The position numbers were made by a program, and so were the translations under genes. 64,000 nucleotides of DNA from an uncultured Alphaproteobacteria bacterium (GTDB lineage Bacteria > Pseudomonadota > Alphaproteobacteria > Rs-D84). Location of the stretch: positions 124,001-188,000 of the forward strand of contig CALXWY010000002.1 of the NCBI GenBank assembly GCA_944392535.1. The letters run 5' to 3'. Each line of letters opens with the position of its first letter. Position 1 is the stretch's first letter. Positions 23,681-40,809 of the stretch are shown one piece after another. The notes beneath the pieces are model-generated. The model was not told the origin of the DNA and did no database searches. It saw only the letters and a list, made by a program, of their open reading frames with translations.

Positions 23681-23756
23681 TCGGGCATAGTTCAGTCGGT
23701 AGAACAACGGACTGTTAATCCGTATGTCACTGGTTCGAGTCCAGTTGCCCGAGCCA
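23681..23756 (+). tRNA. tRNA-Asn (GUU)
   Basis: The acceptor TCGGGCA pairs with TGCCCGA, the anticodon loop is CTGTTAA (anticodon GTT), the T-loop is GGTTCGAGTCC and CCA is encoded. It is the last core feature before the accessory island and a plausible integration target. Confidence 0.95.
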
Positions 23757-24051: not shown

Positions 24052-24069
24052 TTTCAAAAAGGGGTTGTG

Positions 24070-25359
24070 ATGTTATATGGTGCGCTTGTCGGTGATATTG
24101 TTGGTTCAAAATACGAATTCAACAACATCAAGACCAAGGATTTTCAGCTGTTTGCCCATGACTGTAATTTTACAGATGATTCTGTTATGACCCTTGCTGT
24201 GGCCCAAGCGATTATGGTCAGTCGCAAGGACGGCACAGATTTGGCATCTGCGACTATTAAAGCCATGAAAGCCCTCGGCAATGTTTACCCATGGGGCTAT
24301 GGGTACATGTTCAAGTGTTGGTTGGCGGCCAGGGATCCGCAGCCGTATAACAGCTGGGGCAACGGTTCTGCCATGCGTGTCAGTGCCGTTGGCTGGGTCG
24401 GACAAACACTTGATGAAGTTAAACGCATGTCTTATGCAGTGACCGCTATCACCCATAATCACCCCGAAGGGATAAAAGGCGCAGAAGCAACCGCAGTGGC
24501 GGTGTTCTTGGCCCGCACTGGTCACAGCAAGGATGAAATCCGTCAGTATATCTGTGATAATTATTATCAAATTGATTTTACTTTGGATGAAATTCGGGAT
24601 AGTTATCAGTTTAACGAATCCTGCCAGGGAACTGTTCCGCAGGCTCTGCAAGCATTCTTTGAATCCACATCATTTGAAGATGCCATACGTAATGCCATAT
24701 CAATTGGCGGCGACAGCGACACACTTGGTGCAATTACAGGTGCTGTTGCTGAGGCTTATTATGGGGTGCCAGAGAAGATAAAAAGTTTGGCCAACTCATA
24801 TCTACCTGCCGATCTTCGTGGCATTGTGGACGAGTTTAACCACGAATTCAAGAAGACTGGTATTTATGTTGACTTGGTGGATATTACAAAACTGGCGGTG
24901 GATGCCATTGTGAATGCTGCCAACGAAACCCTGTTGGGTGGCGGTGGTGTTGATTATGCAATTCACAAAGCCGCAGGTCCTGAACTGCTGGCAGAATGCA
25001 GAACTTTGAACGGTTGCCAAACCGGTCATTCCAAAATTACCAAGGGGTATAACCTGCCTGCTAAATATGTTATTCATACTGTCGGTCCGGTATATGATTA
25101 TTATATGCCGGACGAAGCAGCAGAATTATTGCACAGTTGTTATACATCCGCTTTAGATCTGGCGAAAGAATACGGATGTCGCACAATTGCTTTTCCGGCG
25201 ATATCGTGTGGCGCATACAGATTCCCATACCAAGATGCCGTTCGGATTGCCGTTCAAGCCGTTCGTTCATATCCTGATTTAGACAGGCATTTTGATAGTA
25301 TCGTTTTTGCGGTGTTTTCTGAAAACCTGTATAACCTGTACAAGGACGAATTACTATAA
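24070..25359 (+). CDS. ADP-ribosylglycohydrolase-macrodomain fusion
   Basis: Two ADP-ribose-processing domains are joined in one 429-residue chain. Residues 1-255 are DraG/ARH-like: [14 protein letters not shown], the metal motif [11 protein letters not shown] and the second metal motif [20 protein letters not shown]. Residues about 270-429 are a macrodomain: [40 protein letters not shown] and [14 protein letters not shown]. Both should remove or bind ADP-ribose from proteins or nucleic acid. ATG 24070 is chosen over GTG 24067 from the spacing to AAGGGG. It is first of three co-directional genes. No ADP-ribosyltransferase partner is visible. The domain calls are firm; the role is inferred. 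Confidence 0.93.
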
Positions 25360-26288: not shown

Positions 26289-27755
26289 TTATTGTTTCAG
26301 GGTTTCAAGCACAACATCCAACAACTTTACCATTGCCATGGTGTCCTGTCCGCAGTATTCGTGTAGGTTCTGCATCATCATGGCGGTTTGTTCTGGGGTC
26401 TGTTTGCCTTTCATAAAATCCATAAACTGTTCGCTGGCCTCAGTCCCATTATGTATGCCCATATTTGCATAGGACATTTCCGGAACAAATGCCGGCAACG
26501 TTTGTTTAATCGATGCACTGCCATTCTGGCAAGGACGATACATACCACGATTGCGGAATGGTATTAACAAATCCAGCATGCGGTCATTTATTGCCAATAA
26601 CTGTTCTGCGTATTCCGGGAATGCCTGGGCCATTTCGGTATTTCTGCCTTGCTCGAATGCTTGGTTATATACGATTACTGACCCGGTGTCGCCGATGGTT
26701 TCAATCAGTTTCTGAATAAGTCTTGGTCTGGGGTCTGTGCCGGCAGTGTCGTGCAGATACTCATAGTGTTCTAATCCTGCACCCGGGCTGCGTTGTACAT
26801 GCAGCGAAAACTGGAAGCATATCTGTTGGTATGGCTTAGAATTGTCGAACATAGGGATCGCCGACATGATGGATTCATAGTCCAAGAAATACAATGGCCA
26901 TTTCAATTGGTCTGTAAATTCACGCAGCACATCCGTATTGATTGTTTCTGTGTCGTTCAGGAATGCCTCTATATCCCCGGCATGCATTTGCTTGTCACGC
27001 AGGTCTGCCGGCACGTTTGCCAGGTTGGCACCGTATGCGGCATATATTTCATCAGCCAGCGCACCCTTGAACGCATCAAATACCGAATACGATGGGATAT
27101 TGCGCCAACAATGGCACTTGTATCCGCACTCATAGAATTTGTTGCACTTGGTCTTTGCGATGGCAATTCCCAGTTCTGGCCCATTCAGAACAGTCCTGAT
27201 GCGTGCGATTTCGGTTGCAACTATGTTTTCGTCCTGCAGGTCCGCCGTTACATCGTGTTCCACAAACAGTTCTTGTATGTCCAGGTCGCCATGCCGCACG
27301 TATTCTGGGTTCAATGTCAGAATTTTGCAATTTCGTATGTTGATGCCGCACTGCGTAAACACGTACCGCTGAAACGACACGTCCAGGTAGTGGTAATCGT
27401 GTGGCTTTGTTGTTGATTTGACCTCTATTATGTCCCATGTGCCATCGTTGTTATTCTGCAAAATATCAACCGCACAGTATTCGCCGGCTTTGGTTCCCAG
27501 TGTTGCCTCGTATATATAGGGTGCATTTGCATTGATTGCCCGAATTGTTTGTGTGTGTGCTGCTTGTTCCCATGGCATAGCATCTATACGAATGCCTCCA
27601 GGGTATCTGGAACATGCCAGTTCGCCAACTGCAGTACCTTGTTCCAAAACCGCTGTGTTCAATTCCTGTTGCAAGTCCTTGCGAAATTTCTTGAACCATA
27701 TTGCATTGGGACATTTAACCCCCAATACATAATCCGATTTTGAAATCTTAAACAT
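26289..27755 (-). CDS. DUF2779 nuclease-type protein
   Basis: The 488 residues combine a Cas4/RecB-like N-terminal part (SDYVLGVKCPNAIWFKKF; the IIEVKSTTKPHDYHYLDVSFQ catalytic block; cysteines CNKFYECGYKCHC that may hold an Fe-S cluster) with an RNase-H-fold exonuclease-like C-terminus. The latter has YFLDYESI, IVYNQAFEQGRN and HEYCGQDTMAMVKLLD, which contain the D-E, N/F-E and D motifs. This is the DUF2779 family layout. It starts one base after the sigma-factor stop, so it is the last gene of the ssp-type operon. A DNA-degrading defence role is inferred. Confidence 0.85.
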   Translation of the reverse strand: MFKISKSDYVLGVKCPNAIWFKKFRKDLQQELNTAVLEQGTAVGELACSRYPGGIRIDAMPWEQAAHTQTIRAINANAPYIYEATLGTKAGEYCAVDILQNNNDGTWDIIEVKSTTKPHDYHYLDVSFQRYVFTQCGINIRNCKILTLNPEYVRHGDLDIQELFVEHDVTADLQDENIVATEIARIRTVLNGPELGIAIAKTKCNKFYECGYKCHCWRNIPSYSVFDAFKGALADEIYAAYGANLANVPADLRDKQMHAGDIEAFLNDTETINTDVLREFTDQLKWPLYFLDYESIMSAIPMFDNSKPYQQICFQFSLHVQRSPGAGLEHYEYLHDTAGTDPRPRLIQKLIETIGDTGSVIVYNQAFEQGRNTEMAQAFPEYAEQLLAINDRMLDLLIPFRNRGMYRPCQNGSASIKQTLPAFVPEMSYANMGIHNGTEASEQFMDFMKGKQTPEQTAMMMQNLHEYCGQDTMAMVKLLDVVLETLKQ

Positions 27756-27756
27756 T

Positions 27757-29451
27757 TTACCTAAGCCCCAACTCTTTCAATTTCTGTATTACCAGCCCAC
27801 GTGTTTTGCCATCAAAGCGGTCTTTCATTTCCCCTGGTGGCATGCCCATTTTTGCAAATTTCTTTAATCTTTGAATGTCCTCATATGTCCATTCTGTATT
27901 TATCTTCGAAAGTTCTTTTTGGGGTTTGGCTGGTTCTTCAACAGGTGTTTGCTCTATTGCTGGCACAATTTTGCTGAGATTTACTGTTGAAGTTGTTCTG
28001 CTGGGTTGACTATAGTCACCCAAGAATGACCTCAATGTTCTTGCACGAGTTGGATGTTTCAGCTTGTTTAATGCCTTTTGCTCTATCTGTCGGACTCGTT
28101 CTCTGGTAACGCCAAGGTATTCGCCAACTTCTTCTAATGTTTTTATTCTATCGCTTTCCAGGCCATATCGTAACTGTAATACAATTGCCTCTTTTGGGTC
28201 CAGTTCTGCCAACAATTGACGTACGATTATGCCCAGTTCTCGTTTTGAAAACTTTTCAAATGGGGATTCTGTGTCTTCGTCTGCCAGGTCATATATGTTG
28301 TTTTCATATTCAGTACACAGGTTCAAATACTCTGTTGCGGCCTCTAAAGTGCAGTTTAATTTGGCAACGATTTCATCTTTCAGGGTTTCACAATCAACCT
28401 TTTTTCCGCACATGCATTCTTGGCATTGGTGGTTTTGTACCAGATCGTATATTTTAAATATGTTGTCTTTCACGTGTGCCGGTATGCAAAACATTGTATG
28501 CTGAGGTAAATCCCCGAAACGTGTTATGTATCCAACAATCGGTCTTGTCACGTAGGCTGGGAATGACTTTAATTCGGTATGGTCAAACGTTTCTATTGCA
28601 TACAGCAACCCAGCGCACCCATCTTGCACCGCATCATAAAACGACATATCAAACTTTCTGTAATAGTACCATGCCGTTCGCAAAACTATGCGAAGGTACA
28701 TTTCGAACATTCTTTCATATGCCCACCGATTGCCACTTTTGACTTGCGGTATCAGTTGTTGCCATTCGTTTCTTTGTGGTGCTTTAATCTTTTTAACTTT
28801 CTTTATGAATTTCTTCAAATCAGGGAATTCTTCTACTATCCATTTATAAATTATATCGTAGTCGACTTTACTTGCATCATATTCTTCGCCTTGTGCTTTT
28901 ACTGGTGCCTCTTGTATAATTACTCCCAGATCCAGCAATCTTTCTGTCAATCTTGATACATCTGAAAAGGATTCCGTAGAGTCTATGATTTCGTTTTCGG
29001 TTACATAGCCACGTTCTTTATATAAGCAATAGAAATTGTAGACCTGTCGTTCAAACGGCGACATGTCTTCTATATTCGTGTGTTGTGCCTCGTATGGTGC
29101 ATTTATGCGAACGGCTACTGGTTGTTCTTCTGGTTCCGTTTCCACCAATTCTTCGGGGACATACATGTCATTAGAAATGATTGGTTCTTCAACCGGGGGT
29201 TCTTCTATAACCTCTGGCATTTCTAATTGTTCGGCTGGTTCGACAGTTTTGGGTTTCCTTACCCTTGGCAGCACTGATGTTTTTGGTTTGGGTTGTCCAG
29301 GCATTTCGTTAGTCCAGCCCATACGAATAAGTTTTCCGATGACAGCACTTTTGGTAAAGCCCAGTCGATTGCCAATTTCGGAAGCAGACAAGCCCTTGTT
29401 ACACAAGGACCGTAGTCGTTTTAGTAAATTGCTATCCCACTGTGCCGCCAT
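27757..29451 (-). CDS. Sigma-70-like factor flanked by GcrA-like HTH domains
   Basis: The 564 residues read as follows. Residues 1-50 are GcrA-like (LLKRLRSLCNKGLSASEIG, SAVIGKLIRMG), then comes an acidic linker. A small helical domain at 132-180 resembles sigma region 1.1, followed by a degenerate sigma region 2 (232-312, WAYERMFEMYLRIVLRTAWY) and region 3 with a Cys group at 343-354 (CQECMCGKKVDC). Region 4 (403-466) is clear, with LEEVGEYLGVTRERVRQIEQ. A second GcrA-like HTH is at 520-564 (WTYEDIQRLKKFAKMG). GcrA in Caulobacter is a sigma-70 co-activator, so this fuses a sigma factor with its co-activator type. It lies in the phosphorothioation operon, 24 bases after the previous gene. Confidence 0.88.
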   Translation of the reverse strand: MAAQWDSNLLKRLRSLCNKGLSASEIGNRLGFTKSAVIGKLIRMGWTNEMPGQPKPKTSVLPRVRKPKTVEPAEQLEMPEVIEEPPVEEPIISNDMYVPEELVETEPEEQPVAVRINAPYEAQHTNIEDMSPFERQVYNFYCLYKERGYVTENEIIDSTESFSDVSRLTERLLDLGVIIQEAPVKAQGEEYDASKVDYDIIYKWIVEEFPDLKKFIKKVKKIKAPQRNEWQQLIPQVKSGNRWAYERMFEMYLRIVLRTAWYYYRKFDMSFYDAVQDGCAGLLYAIETFDHTELKSFPAYVTRPIVGYITRFGDLPQHTMFCIPAHVKDNIFKIYDLVQNHQCQECMCGKKVDCETLKDEIVAKLNCTLEAATEYLNLCTEYENNIYDLADEDTESPFEKFSKRELGIIVRQLLAELDPKEAIVLQLRYGLESDRIKTLEEVGEYLGVTRERVRQIEQKALNKLKHPTRARTLRSFLGDYSQPSRTTSTVNLSKIVPAIEQTPVEEPAKPQKELSKINTEWTYEDIQRLKKFAKMGMPPGEMKDRFDGKTRGLVIQKLKELGLR

Positions 29452-29475: not shown

Positions 29476-30003
29476 CTATCCTCTGGCAAATTCACACAGT
29501 TCGAAGATTTCTTTTGATAGATCGCCATACTTCTCGTTGAAATCAGTGACCAGGTCATACAGGTTGTTTGTATAATCCTCAACCTGTGTTGAGTTCTGGC
29601 ACAGTTTTTCATACAGATAGTCTACACCACCACGCACGTACTCTTCAAATCGTTCAAAGTCTTGCTTGTTCTTTTCGTCATCGCCATAGTGTCTAAAGGC
29701 CTTATCAATGCGTGCTTTCTGGTCTGGTTCATAATCCTTGTCCAGCATCATTATCAATCTGTAATTAAACAGCAGATCAGCTTTATACTGAATCATTATT
29801 GCAGCCAAAATATTTGTGGTTGTTTGTGATGACTTATCCAAAGGCGCACGTCTGCCTTGTAGGAAACCAACAATTGGAGCCATTAGATAGACATCCATGT
29901 TGCGTTCAAACAGTTTGTGGTCTTTATCAAACTTGTTTTCCACCAGTTGCTTTACTTTTTCGGCATGGGTACCCTTAAAAGAATAGTCTTTTTCAAATAG
30001 CAT
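29476..30003 (-). CDS. Unknown 175-residue protein in the ssp-type operon
   Basis: It is an all-helical, charged protein (FKGTHAEKVKQLVENKFDKD, DVYLMAPIVGFLQGRRAPLD, DLLFNYRLIMMLDKDYEPDQ) with no membrane segment. It starts three bases after the SMC-like ATPase stop, so the two are very likely partners. By position it could be the small member of an SspFGH-like restriction set; I do not assign a letter. Structure and activity are unknown. Confidence 0.7.
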   Translation of the reverse strand: MLFEKDYSFKGTHAEKVKQLVENKFDKDHKLFERNMDVYLMAPIVGFLQGRRAPLDKSSQTTTNILAAIMIQYKADLLFNYRLIMMLDKDYEPDQKARIDKAFRHYGDDEKNKQDFERFEEYVRGGVDYLYEKLCQNSTQVEDYTNNLYDLVTDFNEKYGDLSKEIFELCEFARG

Positions 30004-30006
30004 CGG

Positions 30007-31971
30007 TTACTCTCCTTGTAATAAGTCGGTTCTTGTCTTAGAAACCATATCCAATTTGTATCTTGCGCCTATCTTTGGTCCCAAATACTGTCTGGCATAG
30101 TTACCGTCCGTATCTTTAATGAATATGATGACCTGTTCAGCAATCTGTGGAAGGACTTCGCAAACGGTCTGAATTCTTTCCATATCAAATGCAGACAACG
30201 GTGCATCCATCACTAACGGATATGGTTCCGATGTGGATGTTCCACCCTCTGCTTGGCTGTTCTCTCTTGCCATCTTGATCACACCTGCAATAAACGCCAA
30301 AATTATCGCAACACTTTGACCTGTTGATGTTTGCAATTCAGGTGTTACTTTGATGTTGTATTTTTCGTCCAAGGCCAGCGAGAAACCTCCGTTGTAGATT
30401 TCTTGGAATATCTTGTCAATAGACACTGCAAGCTTTTCACGAGTCTGGGTTTCTTTTTCGTCATATTCTTGCTTCAATATTTCGTACACGTATTCTGCAT
30501 ACGATTTGTACTTGTCTATTTCCGCATTCTTCACATTGCCGGCTGACAGTTCATGCAAACGTTGTTCGTTATTGTTCTTCAGGCTTATTTTTTCGCCTTT
30601 TTCTTGGTTCAGCTTGTCTCTATCCTCAGACAAGGAACTCAGGTTTCTTTTATATCTTGCACGTTCTGTCTCTAATGATGACACGTCTTCGATACCATCT
30701 AGTTTTTCGCTGATGTCTTTGAGTTCTTCTTCATAATCGCTTCTTGTGTTCTCGTAATCACGCAAGAATTTGTATTTGTCATCAAATTCATCTTTGAAAA
30801 TTTCGACACTGCGTGTTTTTTCTTCGCATGCTGTCGCAAATTCTCTGATCAGGCTACCCAACGATTTCGGTGGAATTGAATCCAGCAATTTATACAGGGC
30901 ATCATAGTGTTCTTCGCCAGCCTCCAGATGTTCGCCACATATGCACTTTTTTCTGTTGAACAAGAAATTGATTGTTGATGCTGTTACATCCGGAATTCCA
31001 GTGTCTAGTTTGTCCACTTGTTTCAGTGCCATCAACGAGTCGTACATCAACTGAGTTGAGAAGTACTTAGGTCCAAAAGAATTAAAACTTTTTACGAAAC
31101 GGCCGATTTTATCTTTGCGGTCAATTTCCAATGCCTTTAATTTCTTTTCCAATTCTTCACGTCTTGAACTTAGTTCCTTGCTTGACGCATTTTTGGCAAT
31201 ACGCATATCCAAATCTTGGATCTTGTCGTTGGCTGTCTCGTATGACGCATCAATATTGGCCAACAGTCCATTGATTTCTTCAATGCGGTCCGACAGCTCG
31301 CCAATTTGCTGGCTCAACGCTGTCATTTCACTATCTGCATTACCATTATAACTTTCTATATAACTGCCAATTACTGACGAACGACCTTTACCCAAATGTT
31401 CCAACGCCTCGTCATAGGCTTTTAATCCTAACAATCTTTTTACGGCTTCGGCAATGTCACGACTTCTGTTATGGTCGTTAATTTCTTTACTCATTGCCTC
31501 AATATGTTCACCGTCAAAGAAGAAATAACTGGACAATTCTTCTGGCAATATTTCTTTCATCTTCAGATCGGGCAGTTGTTCTGATGTCGTGTTCCCACTG
31601 GCATCTTTGCAGGTAATTGTAAAATCTGCTGATTGTGCTGCCGGAACGACTTGTCCGTTGGTGTCCTTTTTATATTTCATTCTTCTTTTGACAGTATATT
31701 CTCTGTCGTGGTGGACCAATTCTACAGCAACCTCAACATATTCCTGATCGCCGGGGAACATCTTGTCTTGCAGTTCCTGGGACAGCAACACGCCGTTCAA
31801 TATACTTTTGCCATAAAAGCACCAGCTAAATGCCTGAGCAAATGTCGTTTTACCAGCACCGTTCTTACCCATAATGATGGTCACGTTCTTCTGCTTGTCT
31901 GGTGAAAAATCAATTCTCTGTTCCCCATTAAACTGACGAAAGTCTTTTAATTTAAGTGATTTTAATAGCAT
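30007..31971 (-). CDS. DndD-like SMC/Rad50-type ATPase
   Basis: The 654 residues have Walker A MGKNGAGKTTF (35-42 core), a long coiled coil in two arms, a hook-like Cys motif in the middle (KKCICGEHLEAG), the ABC signature region STGQSVAIILAFIAG and Walker B YPLVMDAPLSAFD. This is the layout of DndD and Rad50-like DNA-end or nick sensors. It sits between a 62-residue ORF and a 175-residue gene with 3-16 base gaps. In a PT-based system it probably belongs to the restriction arm; that is inferred. Confidence 0.87.
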   Translation of the reverse strand: MLLKSLKLKDFRQFNGEQRIDFSPDKQKNVTIIMGKNGAGKTTFAQAFSWCFYGKSILNGVLLSQELQDKMFPGDQEYVEVAVELVHHDREYTVKRRMKYKKDTNGQVVPAAQSADFTITCKDASGNTTSEQLPDLKMKEILPEELSSYFFFDGEHIEAMSKEINDHNRSRDIAEAVKRLLGLKAYDEALEHLGKGRSSVIGSYIESYNGNADSEMTALSQQIGELSDRIEEINGLLANIDASYETANDKIQDLDMRIAKNASSKELSSRREELEKKLKALEIDRKDKIGRFVKSFNSFGPKYFSTQLMYDSLMALKQVDKLDTGIPDVTASTINFLFNRKKCICGEHLEAGEEHYDALYKLLDSIPPKSLGSLIREFATACEEKTRSVEIFKDEFDDKYKFLRDYENTRSDYEEELKDISEKLDGIEDVSSLETERARYKRNLSSLSEDRDKLNQEKGEKISLKNNNEQRLHELSAGNVKNAEIDKYKSYAEYVYEILKQEYDEKETQTREKLAVSIDKIFQEIYNGGFSLALDEKYNIKVTPELQTSTGQSVAIILAFIAGVIKMARENSQAEGGTSTSEPYPLVMDAPLSAFDMERIQTVCEVLPQIAEQVIIFIKDTDGNYARQYLGPKIGARYKLDMVSKTRTDLLQGE

Positions 31972-31987
31972 ACTTGTACTCCCATCT

Positions 31988-32176
31988 TTACGAATTCGCA
32001 GTCGTGCGCTTTGCAGGCGAGTACGACTTTACTTCTTCCTGTATAATATCTTGAATGGTCTTAACCATTTCACGAGCCGACTTGTTCTTCTGTTTTATGT
32101 TCAGATTTTCCTTAACCAGGATCTTTTGCAAAATCCGCTTGGCTACATCTGGATTCACGTCTTTGTGTTCCACCAT
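31988..32176 (-). CDS. Small helical protein, 62 residues
   Basis: A basic helical protein (DVNPDVAKRILQKILVKENL, KSAREMVKTIQDIIQEEVKS). Its start overlaps the helicase stop by one base, which indicates translational coupling. No family is recognised; it may be a subunit linking helicase and SMC-like ATPase. Confidence 0.65.
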   Translation of the reverse strand: MVEHKDVNPDVAKRILQKILVKENLNIKQKNKSAREMVKTIQDIIQEEVKSYSPAKRTTANS

Positions 32177-34392
32177 TATAAGTACTCCTCTTCTGGTTTA
32201 ATGATATAATCTTTGATTGAATACGCATCCTTGATTTGGTCGATGACTTTATAGGCATCTGGCATGTTTATAGCCAGGTTTGCGAAGTCTTCTGCACGTT
32301 TCAATTCTCTTTTAATCAATGGCAGATCCTTTTGAATCTGATCCAGCGATAAGTGCGAAATGTTATCCAGTGGTCTTGGCAACGTTATGAAATCGTATAT
32401 TTCTGCGTATTCTTTTGTCTTTTTTGTTATCGGGTCTGTGTATGTGCGCAACACACGTCCACGTCTCTGAATGTATTCTTTCGGGTTTGTTGTGCTGGCC
32501 AATATAAAGGCTGTTTTAATTGCCGGAATGTTCACACCCTCATCTAAACACTTGATAGCAACCAGTACCTGAATGTCCCCAGATGCAAAATCTTTCTTTA
32601 GCTGAGCTCTTTCTTCCATTGTTTCTTCAGACGTAAAGCGAGATGCGACCATGTTCAATTTATTACCCAAAAGTTTGGAAACAGCGATGATCTGTCTGAC
32701 ATCGTTTTCTTCGGTGTCCGACTGTTCTTTGGTTATGTCCATCACATTTGTAGAACCACAATAGACCAAAATATGTTTGTCGTCTTTATATGCCTCTATT
32801 TCATGTGCCAACTTTGGCAGCTTGTCCTGCGCCCCTGCAATAATTCTGGAACGCTTCAGAGCCAATCGCTTTCCACGTTCGCTTAGTGTATGTTTCCCAT
32901 CCTTGCCAATTATCATGCATTTGGAGATTTGTTGTGTTAATTGCAAGTACTCGTCATGTTCTTCTTGGTTCAAGTACGTCAGAATTGGGTGATAATTATA
33001 CTTGGTAAGCACTCCGTTTTCGATTGCTTCCTGCAAGGTATATTCAATGCACTTATCCCCAAAGAAATCGAACAATTTCTTTGTGCCGTCTTTATCATGA
33101 TGTCTGTCAATTGTTGCAGACAGTGCCAATCTGTATTTGTAGGAATTGTTCAGCAATTCCAGGAATTTCGGTGCGCCTGCGTTATGTGCTTCGTCCACAA
33201 CCAGCAAGGTGTCGGATTTTATCTTTTGAATCAACAGCTGTACTTTGTCTGAAACGAACGTTGCGTTTGTACAAATGAACAAAAAGAAATCTTTGCCGGT
33301 TGCACCAATTTTCTGGTCACGAACCGCATTTTCCAATCTTTTATGCCAATCTTTTTGTGCAGAAGCACTGTACCCAATGATTGGTTTGATGTTAAACGCC
33401 TTGATATCATCCACCCACTGTTCCACCAAGTGTTGATATGGCACGACAACTATTACTGCCAGCTTGTTTTCTTTTATTTCTGACAATGTGGTTATTGCCT
33501 CTAATGCGGTCAAAGTTTTCCCTGTGCCAGTTGCCATGTCAAAGATGCCACGATAGCCTGCCTCCGCCCATTTGCCGATTGCAGTTGTTTGATATTCTCT
33601 GGCTTGGAACCAGCTGGGTCGCTGTGGGTAATGGTTAAGAATTTCCACCCCTGGTCGTTCTGTTTTGCTGGGTTCAGGCTCGGCGGGCGGCAACATTGCA
33701 GGTTTGTCCCAATCGGGTGTATATCTGCGATATTTTTCAACAATTTCTTGCTTCAATTGCGGAAATTCGATGATCTTTATACCCTTTGCACTGTCTGACC
33801 AAATGGCATCAAATGCCTTTCGCTTATCTTCGACCCTGGTTTCGTCTTGTGAACGCCAGGAACAATATACATCAATAGCCTCATAATTCAGTGCAAGGCC
33901 GGTGGTTGTTTCGTTCATTGAACCAGAAAAAGCAACCGTATTTCCCTCTGAGTCACTGATCAACCCCAGTTTTTCATGATACATACCAATTTGATTGTCT
34001 TTTTCAGTAAGGGCAATTTTGATATCCAGAACACCATCGGCAATTAAATTTGCCAACAGGTTCAAGTGTTCCTTTTCAAATTCAGTTACCGGTTCCTGCA
34101 GTTCCTTTTCAATTGCTGCTGCAACGATTTCCTCTCGTTTTTTATACCCGCTTTTCATTGCCGCCATGTCTTCATCTGACAAACGAGGCGAAGCAACCAG
34201 GCGGATTTTCCCGCCGTTGTTGCGCAGTCCGGCTATTCCGGACATTATTTGAGCCAAAATTGTGGAAGAAAAAAAGCCTACTGCACGATCGTATGATACT
34301 GCATGTGAAAGCAACGGGATGTAGAAATCTCGGGCAATTTTATCTACGAGAGAACGATACTCTCTTTTTACTGTTACATCTTGTAGGCTCAT
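32176..34392 (-). CDS. PLD-nuclease/superfamily 2 helicase fusion
   Basis: The 738 residues have an N-terminal phospholipase-D-like nuclease domain (FYIPLLSHAVSYDRAVGFFS; the HxK motif in MYHEKLGLISDSEGNTVAFS at about 138-160). A DEAD/DEAH helicase follows: FDMATGTGKTLTAL (Walker A), LLVVDEAHNAG, LALSATIDRH, and motif VI QRRGRVLRTY. Similar fusions accompany PT-modification and other defence systems. It follows sspD by 59 bases. It is a likely restriction component (SspFGH-like), acting on unmodified DNA. Confidence 0.88.
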   Translation of the reverse strand: MSLQDVTVKREYRSLVDKIARDFYIPLLSHAVSYDRAVGFFSSTILAQIMSGIAGLRNNGGKIRLVASPRLSDEDMAAMKSGYKKREEIVAAAIEKELQEPVTEFEKEHLNLLANLIADGVLDIKIALTEKDNQIGMYHEKLGLISDSEGNTVAFSGSMNETTTGLALNYEAIDVYCSWRSQDETRVEDKRKAFDAIWSDSAKGIKIIEFPQLKQEIVEKYRRYTPDWDKPAMLPPAEPEPSKTERPGVEILNHYPQRPSWFQAREYQTTAIGKWAEAGYRGIFDMATGTGKTLTALEAITTLSEIKENKLAVIVVVPYQHLVEQWVDDIKAFNIKPIIGYSASAQKDWHKRLENAVRDQKIGATGKDFFLFICTNATFVSDKVQLLIQKIKSDTLLVVDEAHNAGAPKFLELLNNSYKYRLALSATIDRHHDKDGTKKLFDFFGDKCIEYTLQEAIENGVLTKYNYHPILTYLNQEEHDEYLQLTQQISKCMIIGKDGKHTLSERGKRLALKRSRIIAGAQDKLPKLAHEIEAYKDDKHILVYCGSTNVMDITKEQSDTEENDVRQIIAVSKLLGNKLNMVASRFTSEETMEERAQLKKDFASGDIQVLVAIKCLDEGVNIPAIKTAFILASTTNPKEYIQRRGRVLRTYTDPITKKTKEYAEIYDFITLPRPLDNISHLSLDQIQKDLPLIKRELKRAEDFANLAINMPDAYKVIDQIKDAYSIKDYIIKPEEEYL

Positions 34393-34451
34393 TCATTTGC
34401 TTTTTGTTGTTACAGCAGGGATATATACCACAAAATCGCCGAAAAATCAAG

Positions 34452-35294
34452 TTATTTACCGCAAGCTAGGCATACTTTGGATTTGCCGTATAGGTCGTCC
34501 AAGTCCACCTCGTCATCGTCTGGACGCAGTGGGTTTACCTGTCTCTGCTTTTTTGCTTTTTCAAGACGCTTTTCATAGTCTGCTTTAATCTGTGCTACAC
34601 GTTCTGGCTTGGATAATTCCTCTAAGGATTCTCTTTCGGACCATGTGAACGGTGAACCGCATTTTTCGGCGGTCTTTTCGTATTTTTTTGCTTCCTCAAA
34701 TGCCTCTGGGTGTCTTTCCATCAGGTGGACCCATTCGATCTTTCTCTGGAAGAAGCAGAATGTGCATCCACTGCGTGACCGCCATTTGTAATAATCTGGC
34801 AAGCCCAGACCGGAATAATTCAGAATGTCAACGACCCCGCTTTTGTCGATACCTTCTTCTCTAAACGGCATTTTGATGATCAAGTTGTCTTGACGGGATT
34901 GATAACCCTCACGATATTCTTCATCCGAACGTATTGCAACATAGGAATATACTGTGTACCCATCTTTCAAGAATTTGTTAACCCAGCTTTCAAAGGGTTT
35001 TAGTTTCATGCAAATCGTACACCATCTTGCCTGTGCTGACGGCAAATAGTTGTTATGCTGCATCAGCCAGAAATCAAAGTCTCTTTCTGGGTTCAAGCGC
35101 AATATCGGTTTGCCCAGGTATCCCTCTAGTTTACTCAGGAAGCTGTATACCTCTGGTAATTCCTTGCCGGTGTCAGTAAAGAAATAGTCAATGTCTATTT
35201 CCGGGTGGTTGTCTCGCATGTATACTGCCAGCGCAGCACTATCTTTTCCCCCCGATATCCCCAATACGTGTTTTACTTTCTTTTCTTCGGCCAT
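34452..35294 (-). CDS. sspD: SspD-type PAPS-reductase-like ATP pyrophosphatase
   Basis: The 280 residues have the PP-loop SGGKDSAAL (residues 14-22) and cysteines in CTICMKLKPF, SGCTFCFFQRK and a C-terminal CLACGK that could ligate an Fe-S cluster. The family (DndC/SspD, PAPS reductase fold) activates the DNA backbone or carries sulphur during phosphorothioation. It overlaps the sspC stop by one base. DndC is the close alternative, but the DUF4007 gene in the same operon points to the Ssp type. Confidence 0.87.
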   Translation of the reverse strand: MAEEKKVKHVLGISGGKDSAALAVYMRDNHPEIDIDYFFTDTGKELPEVYSFLSKLEGYLGKPILRLNPERDFDFWLMQHNNYLPSAQARWCTICMKLKPFESWVNKFLKDGYTVYSYVAIRSDEEYREGYQSRQDNLIIKMPFREEGIDKSGVVDILNYSGLGLPDYYKWRSRSGCTFCFFQRKIEWVHLMERHPEAFEEAKKYEKTAEKCGSPFTWSERESLEELSKPERVAQIKADYEKRLEKAKKQRQVNPLRPDDDEVDLDDLYGKSKVCLACGK

Positions 35295-38200
35295 TATTTC
35301 AACCCTTGTTGTTTTTTCAATAATTCTATGCTGATCTGTGACAGTGCTGTCAGAATCAGTGAATTGTCCTTTTCGTCATGCAGAATCTTTTCCAGCTTGG
35401 TTTTCAGTGCCGACACTTCTTTGGTTTTTGATGTCAGCAAGTCAAAGTCCCCAGATATTACCTCGGCACTGCCGCCAATGCCGGCGATGAATGCGATTGC
35501 TTGTCTGGATGCTGGTCTGCCTTTTACTTTTGCGTACAATTCTGCTTTTTTAAACTCTGTACACAAACGCAGGATTTCTTTTTTAGCATTTTCTATATCC
35601 AGGTCAATCCACTCTGTCTGTGGTTTGTTTGTTGCCAGACTGATGATTCCTGCGATATCGGCTGCCGATGAGTCAAATGTTGATAATCTGGCAGCGAATG
35701 CTTCAATTCCGAAGTTTCCGGACACGCCTTTGACGTTTTTGGCTCTTTCACGCAGTTGTTCCAGATAGAACGGTGTTGCCAACGGAATGTCCAGTTCGCT
35801 GGTCATCAAAATCCCGATTGCTTGCAGCATCGTTGGATAGACCTCTGACAGTTCAACCAACGCAGCTTTCACACCCTCGTATATGTTGTTAGAATTGAAT
35901 ATCTTTGGCAGATCTTCAAACAACAGGCGATTTGGGTCATTGGCTGACTTGATTATTTCTCGCATGCGAACCGTCTGATTTGTCAGTGTCTTGGTTTTCA
36001 ATACCCAAGGGTGCAGATTACGCACGAACGACACCAGTTTTCTTGCAACATCTAACGGTTCTGTCAGTTGTTCTGTTGTCCCTGTGTCTTGTAACGCTTT
36101 CACAACGGACATGATTATGTTGTTTGAAACATCATCCGCCTTTACAAACTTTAGCGATATTCTCTTTGGGTCCTTTACCAGATAATCGACAAACAGGTCG
36201 TCAATCTTTGGTGTGTACATGCCGTCTCTGTATACTGCAATATCCTTTGTCTTGGTCATTATGTATGCCAACAGCAATATTGTATGCAGACCGGCCTTTA
36301 TTCCGTATGGTTCGGCTTTCCACATAGCATACACGTCTGCAGCTGTCTTTGAAAACGATGTTTTTAAGAACTCATCAGTTCCTTTCCACAATCCGTACAG
36401 ATCTGTGTCTTTCTTTGGCAAGGAATATGCACCGCCATTGCCTTTGTTTACGTACAGTGCGGTGTCTTGCAACAGAATCTTTAACAGTCCGGCCTCGGTA
36501 CAGAATCCGGTAATACCCAGGTCCTTTTCGCCATTGTTTGTTACCATCAGGCGCAGCAGCTTGTTCATTGCCATGTTTGCACTGGCGGATGGCTTGTTCT
36601 TGTTTACCAGTTCACTTTTGATCTTTGGTGAATATTTGTACTTTTCCTCGCAAACATCCGATGCGATTGATGACAGCTTGCTGGTTGGCACGTTTTCATA
36701 TCTATTGCCTTGGTTGGACCAATCTGCGCCCTGAATCACATCGTCCAGTCTTATGCCTAGCATGTCCGAAACAGCATTCAATCTATCTTCTACGATTTTC
36801 TGTGCGATGGTGTCGCCAACGAAGCCAGGTAATGTGCTTTTCTGGATCCATTCCAAAGCCAGCAATTCACGCAGATGTTCGTTTATCAGCCTTGCGTTTT
36901 TTGCCACACTGAAGAAGACAGGCAGGTCATACTTGTCTTTGCTTTTCAGTATTGTTTCACACTGTTTTTCTTCTGTGGTGCCATTCGGCAGCAAGATGCA
37001 GAACAGTCCAACCGCATTTGTGCTTTTGCAGGCTGTTTCTATCGTTTGTTTATAGTCTGAAACCGATGTCAATATCACGTCAAACCAGCGCATTGCGCCA
37101 TATTCGTGGTAGTATCTTTTTGCAATTACCGGCTTGAACGATACGATTTCTGCCAACTTTGAAGTTTCTAGTCCGGCAACGTGTTTGAAGGCTTCCCGGA
37201 ATGCTGCATCAATATCAAAGTCGCTGCCCTCGAATACTGAATATGCACCTTTGTGTGTCTTAAATAGTATCACAGATGCTTTTTCAAGGTCCTTGATTAT
37301 TGTGTTCAGTTGTTTCGTGTTCGGGAACAAGTATTGCAACAGTTCTTTTGAGGCAACCAATCCTGATGAACCGCTGAATATGTCAATCATGGCAATGCTT
37401 TTAAGAACCTCAAGGTGTTGTTCTGTAAAGTCCCGGGCGGCTATCTTTTGGATTGCCTCCATAGCAATGTGCCATATTTTTGAATCTGACGATGTTACTA
37501 TCAGTGATTCAAGGTTTGTCTTTATGTAATCAAACAGGTTCGACAATGTGTACATCGTATCCTTGGAATACGGTGTATTGTTTATAAAGTCCCTAAATGC
37601 GTATGGTTCCGCACTGGACAGGAACGAGAATATGCTGCGTTGATTCTGTCCGAATTTCTTTCTTGATAATTGTCCTAACAAGCAGACAACTACGGGGTTA
37701 ATCGGCCAGCATCTGCACAATACCTCGACCAAATCGTCTTTTGAAATTATGTGCTTGTTTTTGGCTATAGTGTCGGCAACCTGTTGTGCAATGGGTTTAA
37801 TCTTTGACAGGTCCGGTGCCTTGGTGTTAATTGCACGACCAATCAGTTCTAACTGTTCCTCGCCGGCGGTGTTGATTGGCACGTCAATAAAGCGACCTTG
37901 AATCTTACTCCATTCATCCCTGATGGTATGCGGTAGTGATCTTGCATAATCTACGAATGATTGATGCAAAATTCCTATCAGTATGATTTTGCCATGACTG
38001 CGTGATACGAATTCTGCTAACTGCTGGAAGAAATACACCTCGCCAATGCCTTTGGCTTGTGCCTCAAGGCATTTGCCCATTTCGTCCATTATTATCAACA
38101 AGCCGTCATTTTGGCTTGCCAGTTTTTCCAGGCCGTCAAACAAATCCTTTGACTTGGTATTTAACTGCTTTTTTAATTCTGCTTCTATAAGTTTCTTTGG

Positions 38201-38569
38201 GTCCTGGACATCGCCAACGACAGGCAATACCGCCCAACCGGATTTGTATCTTATGTTCTTAAAGAACGCATCCGCTTCTTCTTGGCCAATTATCTTAATT
38301 CCGATTTCGTGCAGCTTCTTGTTTTCGCTTAACAGTGACGACAGCAACAAGGCTAAACTTGATTTGCCGGATCCATATGGTCCTGTCCACGTAAAGGCCG
38401 CTTGTGATGTTTCACCAACATTTTCCGCCAGCCCACGCAATGCTGTTCGGAACGAATTCGGACATACGAATCCTTTCAGAATCCCCTCGTTATTCATGTC
38501 CTTTTCAATGTTAATTGAACGACAGAATGTGGAATTTATTTTTATGATGTCTGAAAATGTTTGGCTCAT
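35294..38569 (-). CDS. sspC: SspC-type large ATPase
   Basis: The 1091-residue protein carries Walker A TGPYGSGKSSLALLLS (residues 62-77) and Walker B GLLIIMDEMGKCLE. The region after that (residues about 190-260) resembles AAA/STAND ATPases. The long remainder is helical without recognised domains. SspC is the ATPase of the single-strand phosphorothioation complex SspBCD. Its start overlaps the sspB stop by four bases, consistent with a fixed complex. Confidence 0.84.
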   Translation of the reverse strand: MSQTFSDIIKINSTFCRSINIEKDMNNEGILKGFVCPNSFRTALRGLAENVGETSQAAFTWTGPYGSGKSSLALLLSSLLSENKKLHEIGIKIIGQEEADAFFKNIRYKSGWAVLPVVGDVQDPKKLIEAELKKQLNTKSKDLFDGLEKLASQNDGLLIIMDEMGKCLEAQAKGIGEVYFFQQLAEFVSRSHGKIILIGILHQSFVDYARSLPHTIRDEWSKIQGRFIDVPINTAGEEQLELIGRAINTKAPDLSKIKPIAQQVADTIAKNKHIISKDDLVEVLCRCWPINPVVVCLLGQLSRKKFGQNQRSIFSFLSSAEPYAFRDFINNTPYSKDTMYTLSNLFDYIKTNLESLIVTSSDSKIWHIAMEAIQKIAARDFTEQHLEVLKSIAMIDIFSGSSGLVASKELLQYLFPNTKQLNTIIKDLEKASVILFKTHKGAYSVFEGSDFDIDAAFREAFKHVAGLETSKLAEIVSFKPVIAKRYYHEYGAMRWFDVILTSVSDYKQTIETACKSTNAVGLFCILLPNGTTEEKQCETILKSKDKYDLPVFFSVAKNARLINEHLRELLALEWIQKSTLPGFVGDTIAQKIVEDRLNAVSDMLGIRLDDVIQGADWSNQGNRYENVPTSKLSSIASDVCEEKYKYSPKIKSELVNKNKPSASANMAMNKLLRLMVTNNGEKDLGITGFCTEAGLLKILLQDTALYVNKGNGGAYSLPKKDTDLYGLWKGTDEFLKTSFSKTAADVYAMWKAEPYGIKAGLHTILLLAYIMTKTKDIAVYRDGMYTPKIDDLFVDYLVKDPKRISLKFVKADDVSNNIIMSVVKALQDTGTTEQLTEPLDVARKLVSFVRNLHPWVLKTKTLTNQTVRMREIIKSANDPNRLLFEDLPKIFNSNNIYEGVKAALVELSEVYPTMLQAIGILMTSELDIPLATPFYLEQLRERAKNVKGVSGNFGIEAFAARLSTFDSSAADIAGIISLATNKPQTEWIDLDIENAKKEILRLCTEFKKAELYAKVKGRPASRQAIAFIAGIGGSAEVISGDFDLLTSKTKEVSALKTKLEKILHDEKDNSLILTALSQISIELLKKQQGLK

Positions 38570-39519
38570 TTATAATTCCTTTTGAAGTATTCGTACGCTT
38601 TGTCTTCAAAGTCTATGTTCTTTGTAAGTATTATTTCTTTTAAACCGGCTGTTTCTGAATATTCAAACAGGCCGTTTGTCGCCTTTGCTATGTCCTGCAT
38701 GTATCCGGCCACAGCATCTTCATTCAGCAAGAATACTCGTCCGGGTGACATTGGCTGGTAGCATATTGATTCAAACGACATTGTCTTGGCATTCGGCGAA
38801 TAATCCGCCCAGAATTTCAACAGTCCGAATAAGAACGTGTATATCGACAGACTTGGTTTTATGCCACGATTTACCTGAAACACGTCTCGTCTTGTCTTCG
38901 GGCTTATCAAATCCAGTTCAACCAATGGGGATTCAATGCTATCTTCGTCAGCCTTGTTCTTTTTTATTTTCGGCGAATACATACCGATGAAGCAATCTAT
39001 GTCACGGCCTAATGTCAATGACGCAGGAATCTTGCTTTCGTCTATGCGTTCTTTTATGAATGCACACAGGTTCTTGCTCAGAATGTCTTTATCGAATGTT
39101 GCAAAATTGTAATGATTAAAGAACCAATAATATGTAAACAGGTAATCGCCGTTGCTCTTTCCGTACACCAGGTTCCAATGTATAAACCACAGGGTAGACA
39201 GGTTTTCCATCCAGGGATCAACGCCATTTTGTCCGATCAGCCACTTGCCGAATTCAGTAATTACAAGGTCTTTCGTGTCGTTCACATCAAATATGCCAGA
39301 ATATAATGCCCAGTATTTCATTGATGTTACCATGTTCTTACCGACACCTAATTCAACGATCGCTTTTTCAGATGCAAAGAAGTTTCTTATGCCGTCTTTT
39401 TCGTGGTTTTCTGCGGCTTCCATTGATTTTTTCAACCAGCCGTAACGCATAGGAAATGTTTCGTGTCCCGAGAATACAAGGCGTGCGTTGCTGTCGATTA
39501 TTGTTGCATTTTTTCTCAT
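38566..39519 (-). CDS. sspB: SspB-type DUF4007 protein (nickase)
   Basis: The 317 residues are a DUF4007 protein: LVFSGHETFPMRYGWLKKSM, IVELGVGKNMVTSMKYWA and TEFGKWL are characteristic. SspB proteins of this family nick DNA before sulphur insertion, as reported for the Ssp system. It is the first gene of the leftward operon and divergent from sspA. An extended -10 (TGATATAGT, 39563-39571 read in reverse) lies 44 bases upstream. Confidence 0.87.
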   Translation of the reverse strand: MRKNATIIDSNARLVFSGHETFPMRYGWLKKSMEAAENHEKDGIRNFFASEKAIVELGVGKNMVTSMKYWALYSGIFDVNDTKDLVITEFGKWLIGQNGVDPWMENLSTLWFIHWNLVYGKSNGDYLFTYYWFFNHYNFATFDKDILSKNLCAFIKERIDESKIPASLTLGRDIDCFIGMYSPKIKKNKADEDSIESPLVELDLISPKTRRDVFQVNRGIKPSLSIYTFLFGLLKFWADYSPNAKTMSFESICYQPMSPGRVFLLNEDAVAGYMQDIAKATNGLFEYSETAGLKEIILTKNIDFEDKAYEYFKRNYK

Positions 39520-39562
39520 AATCCCCTATAATCCTCTCTGTTGGTTGTTTCTTCCAGTAGGA

Positions 39563-39571
39563 ACTATATCA
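39563..39571 (-). promoter_or_regulatory. Possible promoter of the sspBCD operon
   Basis: On the reverse strand TG-A-TATAGT is an extended -10 with no clear -35. A forward match TTGGTT-18-TATATC overlaps it and could serve sspA. Confidence 0.35.
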
Positions 39572-39615
39572 AGTTCTCTTGGCGAAATCTACCAAAAAAA
39601 CTTAGACCTGTAAAT

Positions 39616-40809
39616 ATGAAAAGTAATTGTTTAGAAATTTTTGAAAATTCGCAGTATTATCAAGATGTTAAAGAAATCTATCTTGATTACCAGGCTTCTA
39701 CCCCACTAGACAAGCGGGTGTTGTCTGCGATGCTGCCTTTCATGACATCTGAGTTCGGCAACCCCCATTCTTCGGAACACGCAATCGGCTGGCAAGCCAA
39801 TGATGCGGTCGAGAATGCTCGGGAACAAGTTGCTGATTATATCGGTGCATTGTCGGAAGAAATCATATTTACGTCCGGGGCCACCGAGTCCAATAACACT
39901 GTGATCATCGGTCTAGGCTATGCTGCTATGACCAAAAATATTAGTCGCAAGACCATTCTTATTTCCGCCATCGAACACAAATGTGTCCTTGGTGCGGCTC
40001 GTTTCTTGAGCCGGTTCGGTTTCAACATACAGCACATACCTGTCAAATCAGACGGCGTAATTGATCTGGAGCAATTCCGTTCTATGTTAACCGATGATGT
40101 TTTGTTGGTATCCGTAATGACAACGAATAACGAAGTTGGCACAGTCCAACCGATTGCTGAAATTGGACAGTTATGCCACGCAAATGGGACGTTGTTCCAT
40201 ACTGATGCCGCACAGGGCTGTTACGAAAATCTTGATGTTTTTGACAACAATGTGGATTTTATGAGTCTGTCAGCCCACAAGATTTATGGCCCCAAGGGCA
40301 TTGGTGCCTTGTATATCAGCAACAACGCATATCTTAAACCCGAACCAATTCTGTATGGTGGCGGGCAACAGTTGGGATTTAGATCCGGTACTGTTCCTGC
40401 TTTCCTTACCGTTGGCTTTGGTGAAGCAGCCAGAATAATGGCTGACGAAAAGGAAGCAGAACGTAACGAATTGTTGCGCCTGCGTGGAATGCTGCTATCT
40501 GAAATTCAGAAACGCATTCCGGGTGTTGTTGTCAACGGCTCTCTGGACAATAGACATCCTGGGAACTTGAATGTTTTGATTCCTAGTATTGAATCTAAAC
40601 AGTTAATTTATTCAATTCAGCCGCACGTTGCATTTTCGACTGGTTCCGCCTGCACAAGTGGTGTTATTGAACCATCGCACGTTTTAATTGCCATGGGCTT
40701 GTCTACCGCCGATGCGGAACATTCATTCAGAATAACTGTTGGTCGTTTCACAGATGAAAACGACATTGTGATGGCAGCCGAAAGCATTGCTGCAAAAGCC
40801 AACGCATAG
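39616..40809 (+). CDS. sspA: Cysteine desulfurase SspA/DndA type
   Basis: A PLP enzyme that takes sulphur from cysteine for DNA phosphorothioation. The 397 residues have IYLDYQASTPLDKRV, the FTSGATESNN loop, the PLP lysine in SLSAHKIYGPKGIGALY and the persulfide cysteine in FSTGSACTSG. The ATG at 39616 is taken as the start; an open frame extends back to 39541 but is not family-like. It is divergent from sspBCD with 96 bases between. A housekeeping IscS is possible by sequence alone; the position argues for SspA. Confidence 0.88.
   Translation: MKSNCLEIFENSQYYQDVKEIYLDYQASTPLDKRVLSAMLPFMTSEFGNPHSSEHAIGWQANDAVENAREQVADYIGALSEEIIFTSGATESNNTVIIGLGYAAMTKNISRKTILISAIEHKCVLGAARFLSRFGFNIQHIPVKSDGVIDLEQFRSMLTDDVLLVSVMTTNNEVGTVQPIAEIGQLCHANGTLFHTDAAQGCYENLDVFDNNVDFMSLSAHKIYGPKGIGALYISNNAYLKPEPILYGGGQQLGFRSGTVPAFLTVGFGEAARIMADEKEAERNELLRLRGMLLSEIQKRIPGVVVNGSLDNRHPGNLNVLIPSIESKQLIYSIQPHVAFSTGSACTSGVIEPSHVLIAMGLSTADAEHSFRITVGRFTDENDIVMAAESIAAKANA

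Follow-up and report, generated by a model that had tools for sequence, protein, structure and literature searches.

GcrA and sigma-70 are the textbook pair of separate proteins through which DNA methylation is linked to promoter choice. What, then, is the role of a single chain that carries sigma-70 regions together with GcrA-type domains and is encoded inside a DNA-modification defence operon? This question was raised by a gene in a 64,000-nucleotide stretch of DNA (hereafter the window) from a gut-type, uncultured alphaproteobacterium of the lineage Rs-D84 (contig CALXWY010000002.1, positions 124,001 to 188,000). A first-pass annotation had proposed that the protein reads DNA modification status and switches on the restriction arm or other island promoters. 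The interval given for it, 27757-29451, proved right. The open reading frame runs along the minus strand, starts with ATG, and has a product of 564 amino acids (P0001), and a plus-strand reading of the interval was ruled out by its many stops.

Pfam matches along the protein occur in the order GcrA (residues 4-78), Sigma70_r2 (248-310), and Sigma70_r4 (413-466). The N-terminal GcrA-type DNA-binding domain was placed at residues 4-45 (29317-29442, like all parts of this gene on the minus strand) from Pfam, PDB entry 5yiu, and predicted helices. It is followed by an acidic linker, residues 46-127 (29071-29316), that is probably disordered, as judged by its sequence and low pLDDT. NCBIfam RpoD models (PRK09210) cover residues 126-477. 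From where this alignment starts, regions 1.2-4 appear to be preceded by a domain like region 1.1 of primary sigma factors; by alignment and sequence pattern, this domain would occupy residues 128-183 (28903-29070). Sigma regions 1.2-2.4 span residues 209-312 (28516-28827; Sigma70_r2 and alignment), region 3.2 residues 378-400 (28252-28320), and region 4 residues 410-478 (28018-28224). The chain ends in a degenerate GcrA-type domain, residues 520-564 (27760-27894), placed by Pfam, by the copy in an orthologue, and by a pLDDT of about 80. AlphaFold2 modelling of two sequences had a poor global pLDDT of 51, with the terminal HTHs alone usable; the N-terminal GcrA domain was modelled as three helices (pLDDT about 80). 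A structure search of the model against the PDB returned sigma factors with low TM-scores.

The N-terminal domain is clearly of the GcrA type. In a search with the full-length protein it matched Pfam GcrA (PF07750) at an E-value of 1e-13, better than the curated cut-off requires; the fragment searched alone matched at 2e-10, where the best generic HTH family reached 1e-3. Among PDB sequences, it matched the DNA-binding domain of Caulobacter GcrA (5yiu) and GcrA in RNA polymerase complexes (7ye1) at 1.5e-4, with no non-GcrA match below an E-value of 0.5. For the last 68 residues of the protein searched alone, GcrA was the sole Pfam match (E 0.002; 18.9 bits, cut-off 26.9). The C-terminus of the orthologue scored better, with a Pfam GcrA E-value of 1.3e-5 (26.1 bits, slightly below the cut-off) and GcrA as the nearest credible PDB match (6e-4), and we therefore consider the C-terminal domain in the window to be GcrA-derived but degenerate. 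The proposal of GcrA-like HTHs at both ends thus stands plainly for the N-terminus, whereas the C-terminus is weak by itself and has the support of the orthologue. A generic HTH identity of the termini, which had been named as grounds for refutation, was rejected, as GcrA outscored every other Pfam family. The C-terminal sigma-interacting domain (SID) of GcrA is absent in both proteins, the Pfam match ending at model position 75 of 155.

The orthologue is encoded by G130, a metagenome-assembled genome of an uncultured Alphaproteobacteria bacterium of the same genus (public contig CAMRWN010000001.1), in the same run of genes. It has 434 amino acids (L034:18284-19588; 51-52% identity) and is 51% identical over window residues 140-563. 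The G130 pbeD gene ends just ahead of its start, and the frame can extend no further than three codons upstream of the ATG, so that an N-terminal GcrA domain would not fit. A search for the same fusion beside ssp or dnd genes elsewhere had been suggested at first pass; in G130 it does lie beside ssp genes, though in a form without that domain. Each protein has one well-formed GcrA domain, N-terminal in the window and C-terminal in G130, and the two-ended "sandwich" is confined to the window copy. Over 41 positions, the window N-domain shares 26 with the host's own GcrA, 20 with the G130 C-domain, and 19 with Caulobacter GcrA; the window C-domain is nearest to the G130 C-domain (16/41 identical). 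On these sequences the simplest history would be an ancestral C-terminal GcrA domain, followed in the window lineage by gain of a host-like N-terminal copy and erosion of the old one. Loss of an N-terminal domain in G130 is a possible alternative history. Statements on conservation refer throughout to this one pair, the only two members known. Tyrosine integrases (L034:4398-5579 and L035:1901-2977) lie on both sides of the G130 ssp-pbe-sigma island, which suggests an integrative element.

Residues 229-480 of the sigma core share 40% identity with RpoD of the same order, against 32-38% for the remaining RpoDs in the comparison. Region 4.2 is nearly identical to that of the host RpoD and bears the order signature EQKALNKLKHPTRA. 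In a small-sample maximum-likelihood tree the fusion pair grouped with the RpoDs of the order, with support of 100 and on a long branch. The primary sigma type of the order has thus been copied and remodelled to give this core. Region 4 is indeed well kept (Sigma70_r4, E 1e-19). Region 2 (Sigma70_r2, E 8e-8) had been called degenerate, which alignment confirmed for regions 2.3-2.4, which are lost, and contradicted for region 2.2, in which the core-binding residues are mostly retained. In E. coli numbering, D403, Q406, and E407 contact core polymerase; D403 and Q406 are retained, E407 is replaced by D, and N409 is Cys in both proteins. At the positions of W433, W434, and Q437, the residues of -10 recognition and melting in E. 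coli, the two proteins have Arg, Pro, and Gly or Asn, so that the motif TWW/TNW is replaced by TRP in both. By alignment, the sigma finger in region 3.2 is likewise shortened in both proteins, through a deletion of about 11 residues. In terms of group 1-2 sigma-70 factors, regions 2 and 4 with a core-binding surface are present, and the -10 residues and the finger are missing. Judging by the residues kept and lost, the protein could plausibly bind core polymerase and a -35 element; it is not plausible that it reads a -10 in the normal way or performs the functions of the finger. With its -10/melting residues and 3.2 finger missing, the fusion protein may not initiate transcription.

Region 3 contains a Cys-rich insertion with the pattern H341-x-C343-xx-C346 ... 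C354 ... C367 (28351-28431). The four-Cys group noted at first pass is real, as all four cysteines and H341 are identical in both proteins; C348 is not conserved between them. The cysteines could possibly sense metal or redox state.

The fusion is rare. Among some 200 genomes in the order, just two encode it, G130 and the one that the window comes from, and PbeA occurs in exactly those two. Among about 390 genomes sampled across the class, the remaining matches at an E-value of 1e-31 or better span the sigma core only, like housekeeping RpoDs. G130 was also the sole match when 84,980 species genomes were scanned twice by pattern, an approach that overlooks distant relatives and may not have covered entries for the genome of the window or close to it. 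Viral contigs yielded no relative of the fusion, and the plasmids and phages scanned yielded ordinary sigma factors only. A housekeeping paralogue was rejected on this distribution, and with it failed the objection that the fusion might be a widespread housekeeping factor.

The operon had been described as one of backbone-sulphur modification, correctly so: PADLOC and NCBIfam identified SspABCD and a complete PbeABCD. The minus-strand genes are closely packed. In order they are sspB (38566-39519; PADLOC E 6e-92, Pfam DUF4007), sspC (35294-38569; PADLOC E 0), sspD (34452-35294; a PAPS-reductase-like sulphurtransferase, PADLOC E 3e-134), pbeA (32176-34392; PLD nuclease and SF2 helicase, PADLOC E 9e-246), pbeB (31988-32176), pbeC (30007-31971; CxC/DndD-like ABC ATPase, PADLOC E 2e-109), pbeD (29476-30003; DndE cognate/dnd_assoc_4), the sigma gene, and a gene for a DUF2779 and Cas4-like protein (26289-27755; Pfam) that ends the run. 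Divergent from these on the plus strand is sspA (39616-40809; cysteine desulphurase, PADLOC E 7e-137), with a likely ATG start in a frame open from 39541. All four ssp genes were matched by PADLOC, as were PbeA and PbeC, strongly, and PbeD, weakly (both PADLOC PbeD and NCBIfam TIGR04062). The small ORF between pbeA and pbeC, with a product of 62 amino acids, resembles an ORF at that position in the sister locus and agrees with the definition of PbeB as a small protein (PMC10853773). Same-strand gaps are 24 bp between pbeD and the sigma gene and 1 bp between the sigma gene and the DUF2779 gene, and the sigma gene is probably co-transcribed with its neighbours. The DUF2779 gene was rejected as an obligate partner, since it occurs in 27/151 genomes of the genus, mostly without the ssp-pbe island, compared with PbeA in two genomes of the order only; it is possibly a separate mobile defence gene.

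Beyond the operon, a tRNA-Asn (23681-23756), a possible attachment site, lies immediately left of the island; after it, at 24067-25359, comes a gene that joins an ADP-ribosylglycohydrolase to a macro-like domain. At 40810-64000 the ssp-pbe island borders on genes of a contractile-tailed prophage, among them those for terminase, tail sheath, and tape measure. The terminase runs past the window end and has as its neighbour a DNA methyltransferase whose N-terminus is ParB-like (L054).

Comparison of the two species revealed two conserved noncoding blocks. The divergent sspA/sspB block (39520-39600), of which about 70-80 bp are kept in both species, contains an imperfect inverted repeat (TTGGTAGATTTC ... 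GAAGAAACAACCAA) and an extended -10-like TGnTATAGT, and is a candidate operator; no convincing second site for its motif was found in the window. The sspD-pbeA gap (34393-34451, minus strand) has a conserved promoter-like TTGATT-17/16-TATATA/TATAAT, spaced by eye. Both regions resemble ordinary sigma-70 promoters, and GANTC does not occur in the conserved parts of either in either species. GANTC-based autoregulation is therefore unsupported, and the proposal that the protein switches on promoters of the island gained no support.

To place the window protein among other defence loci, we compared pbeA loci from outside the order, 28 in all: 14 on plasmids and 7 each from the samples of the class and the phylum. 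An ORF with sigma region 4 lies near pbeA in 8 of them; under a chance of 5% per locus, which is an assumption and not a measured background, such a count has a probability of 5e-5, and the 8 cases are not all independent, as Ruegeria and Pontibrevibacter are related. In the mapped cases (Ruegeria, Pontibrevibacter, Aurantiacibacter, Rhizobium NXC14, G937, G767, and Arthrobacter) the gene is directly adjacent to pbeA or pbeD and codirectional with it. Proteins of this kind beside pbeABCD are encoded at L064:5870-8950, L070:5897-8950, L066:13615-14928, L068:6700-8946, L077:3865-6336, L082:10863-13913, and L072:6788-8983. A cultured carrier of a sigma-4/alpha-CTD gene is Ruegeria sp. THAF33, on plasmid pTHAF33_d. 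Most of these proteins also match the RNA polymerase alpha-CTD, and no region 2 or GcrA was found by Pfam in those scanned. Two alphaproteobacterial ssp-pbe loci (L063 and L071) have no sigma-4 gene, so a sigma-like component at pbe loci is common but optional. G572, a further case, is a decayed pbe locus with in-frame stops (L051:13911-15083) that retains a sigma-4 remnant that resembles the Aurantiacibacter protein. The sigma-4 proteins, usually with an alpha-CTD-like part, may be an undescribed component of pbeABCD defence systems, and the full sigma-GcrA chain of the window looks like a lineage-specific version of this recurrent theme; no homology between it and the sigma-4 proteins was found beyond region 4, and Pfam found no alpha-CTD in it.

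Our favoured reading, to which we give somewhat less than an even chance, is that the protein is a modification-reading transcription factor of the phosphorothioate defence island, derived from RpoD and with GcrA in cis. GcrA domains are readers of m6A in GANTC, and in Caulobacter the C-terminal domain of GcrA binds sigma region 2 and the N-terminal domain binds m6A-GANTC promoters (PMC3667746, PMC7403470). The window's host encodes separate GcrA, CcrM, and RpoD proteins (best PDB match of CcrM: CcrMI, 6pbd, E 5e-123). The methyl mark therefore exists in this host, which makes reading of methyl-adenine GANTC by the GcrA domain of the fusion plausible and is why we favour a modification-guided transcription factor. 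We hypothesize that a diverged copy of the primary sigma of the order acquired one or two GcrA-type domains in cis and was kept as a regulatory sigma-like component of the SspABCD-PbeABCD island. Regions 1.2/2.2 and 4 would dock the protein on core RNA polymerase, with region 4.2 reading a near-consensus -35 element. A normal -10 would not be read or melted in the usual way, and the GcrA domain would supply a second DNA contact, probably at a GANTC-type site and dependent on CcrM methylation. As a single-chain counterpart of the two-protein GcrA-sigma complex, it could steer polymerase to, or hold it at, a presumably small promoter set according to DNA modification.

The absence of region 2 from the sigma-4 proteins at other pbeABCD loci counts against a sigma-like role. 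These comparable proteins cannot be sigma factors, so the chief alternative is an adaptor of the restriction machinery that mimics polymerase, in which sigma-4 (with alpha-CTD in the relatives and GcrA here) delivers PbeA-D to promoters or polymerase-bound DNA and helps with target choice or self/non-self discrimination. The window protein occupies the same slot, after pbeD, as these mostly alpha-CTD-like proteins of 8/28 loci, and has lost its -10 and finger functions. We nevertheless judge this role somewhat unlikely: the region 1.1-like, 1.2, 2.2, 3, and 4 parts are still kept, a pure -35 binder would need no core-binding surface in region 2, and the likeness to the sigma-4 proteins ends with region 4.

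Retention of regions 2.2 and 4 with loss of initiation functions would also fit a decoy or brake that vies with RpoD for core polymerase and keeps host or phage transcription down, as in an abortive response or in autorepression. Such a role leaves the GcrA domains unexplained, and we consider it improbable. It is very improbable that the protein is a functionless, degenerating RpoD paralogue carried in the island. The eroded C-terminal GcrA domain and the long branch would agree with decay, but both species have intact ORFs, about 52% identical, region 4 is kept, and novel motifs (TRPI, the four Cys, and the finger deletion) are common to both. The strict form of the earlier idea, that the GcrA domains read phosphorothioate and so switch on the island, has operon linkage in its favour and is scarcely credible, given that GcrA reads m6A/GANTC (PMC3667746, PMC7403470) in a host with CcrM, that known phosphorothioate readers use other folds, SBD/wHTH (PMC10853773), and that neither GANTC nor another candidate site occurs in the conserved promoter-like parts of the island.

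A wider proposal, which we regard as unlikely but worth stating, is that PbeABCD-type phosphorothioate defence has a recurrent, undescribed RNA-polymerase-like component (sigma region 4, often with alpha-CTD) linking promoters to restriction or to its control, present here as a full sigma-GcrA chain that would read the CcrM mark and so bring phosphorothioate and m6A into one immune system. Should a sigma-like Pbe component be general, it would bear on how phosphorothioate systems are switched on or choose their targets.

A sigma factor in an immune system is a known kind of component, as illustrated by MzaA and CalpS. MzaA of the MZA anti-phage system (NCBIfam NF041931) is likewise an RpoD-like sigma in an anti-phage operon, and its model aligns over residues 221-479 of the fusion. 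However, MzaA is without GcrA domains and has other partner genes. Identity as MzaA was rejected: the score was 126 bits against a cut-off of 800, RpoD models scored slightly better, and the neighbours are ssp and pbe genes, with no mzaB-E. In the CRISPR-linked (type III) CalpS/CalpT/CalpL system, a sigma is likewise dedicated to the immune response, where CalpS is held by the anti-sigma CalpT, which is cleaved after cA4 signalling (PMC12751052); the window locus, unlike that system, has no Lon/SAVED or anti-sigma gene. The described SspABCD and PbeABCD (CxC ABC-ATPase/DndE) systems have the same modification and restriction gene content and order, and the text describing them has no sigma/GcrA component, a sigma-related HTH being mentioned only inside gammaproteobacterial DndH (PMC10853773). 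The "Sigma factor-like HTH" proteins with alpha-CTD found next to pbeABCD (WP_063612567, WP_152460869, WP_245362195, and WP_166195114) share sigma region 4 and the operon position; they differ in having no region 2 or GcrA, mostly have alpha-CTD-like/HhH domains, and are apparently of separate origin. Within the literature and libraries searched, the GcrA fusion, its lesions, and its phosphorothioate context are new. The closest parallel is the GcrA-sigma70 pair of the CcrM/GcrA cell-cycle system of Caulobacter (5yiu, 7ye1), which likewise combines a GcrA DNA-binding domain with a primary-type sigma. There the two are separate proteins joined through the SID, whereas here the DNA-binding domain is fused to the sigma, the SID is absent, and the gene is an accessory one in a defence operon. 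A natural one-chain GcrA-sigma fusion of this kind would allow the coupling of methylation to promoters to be studied in a minimal form.
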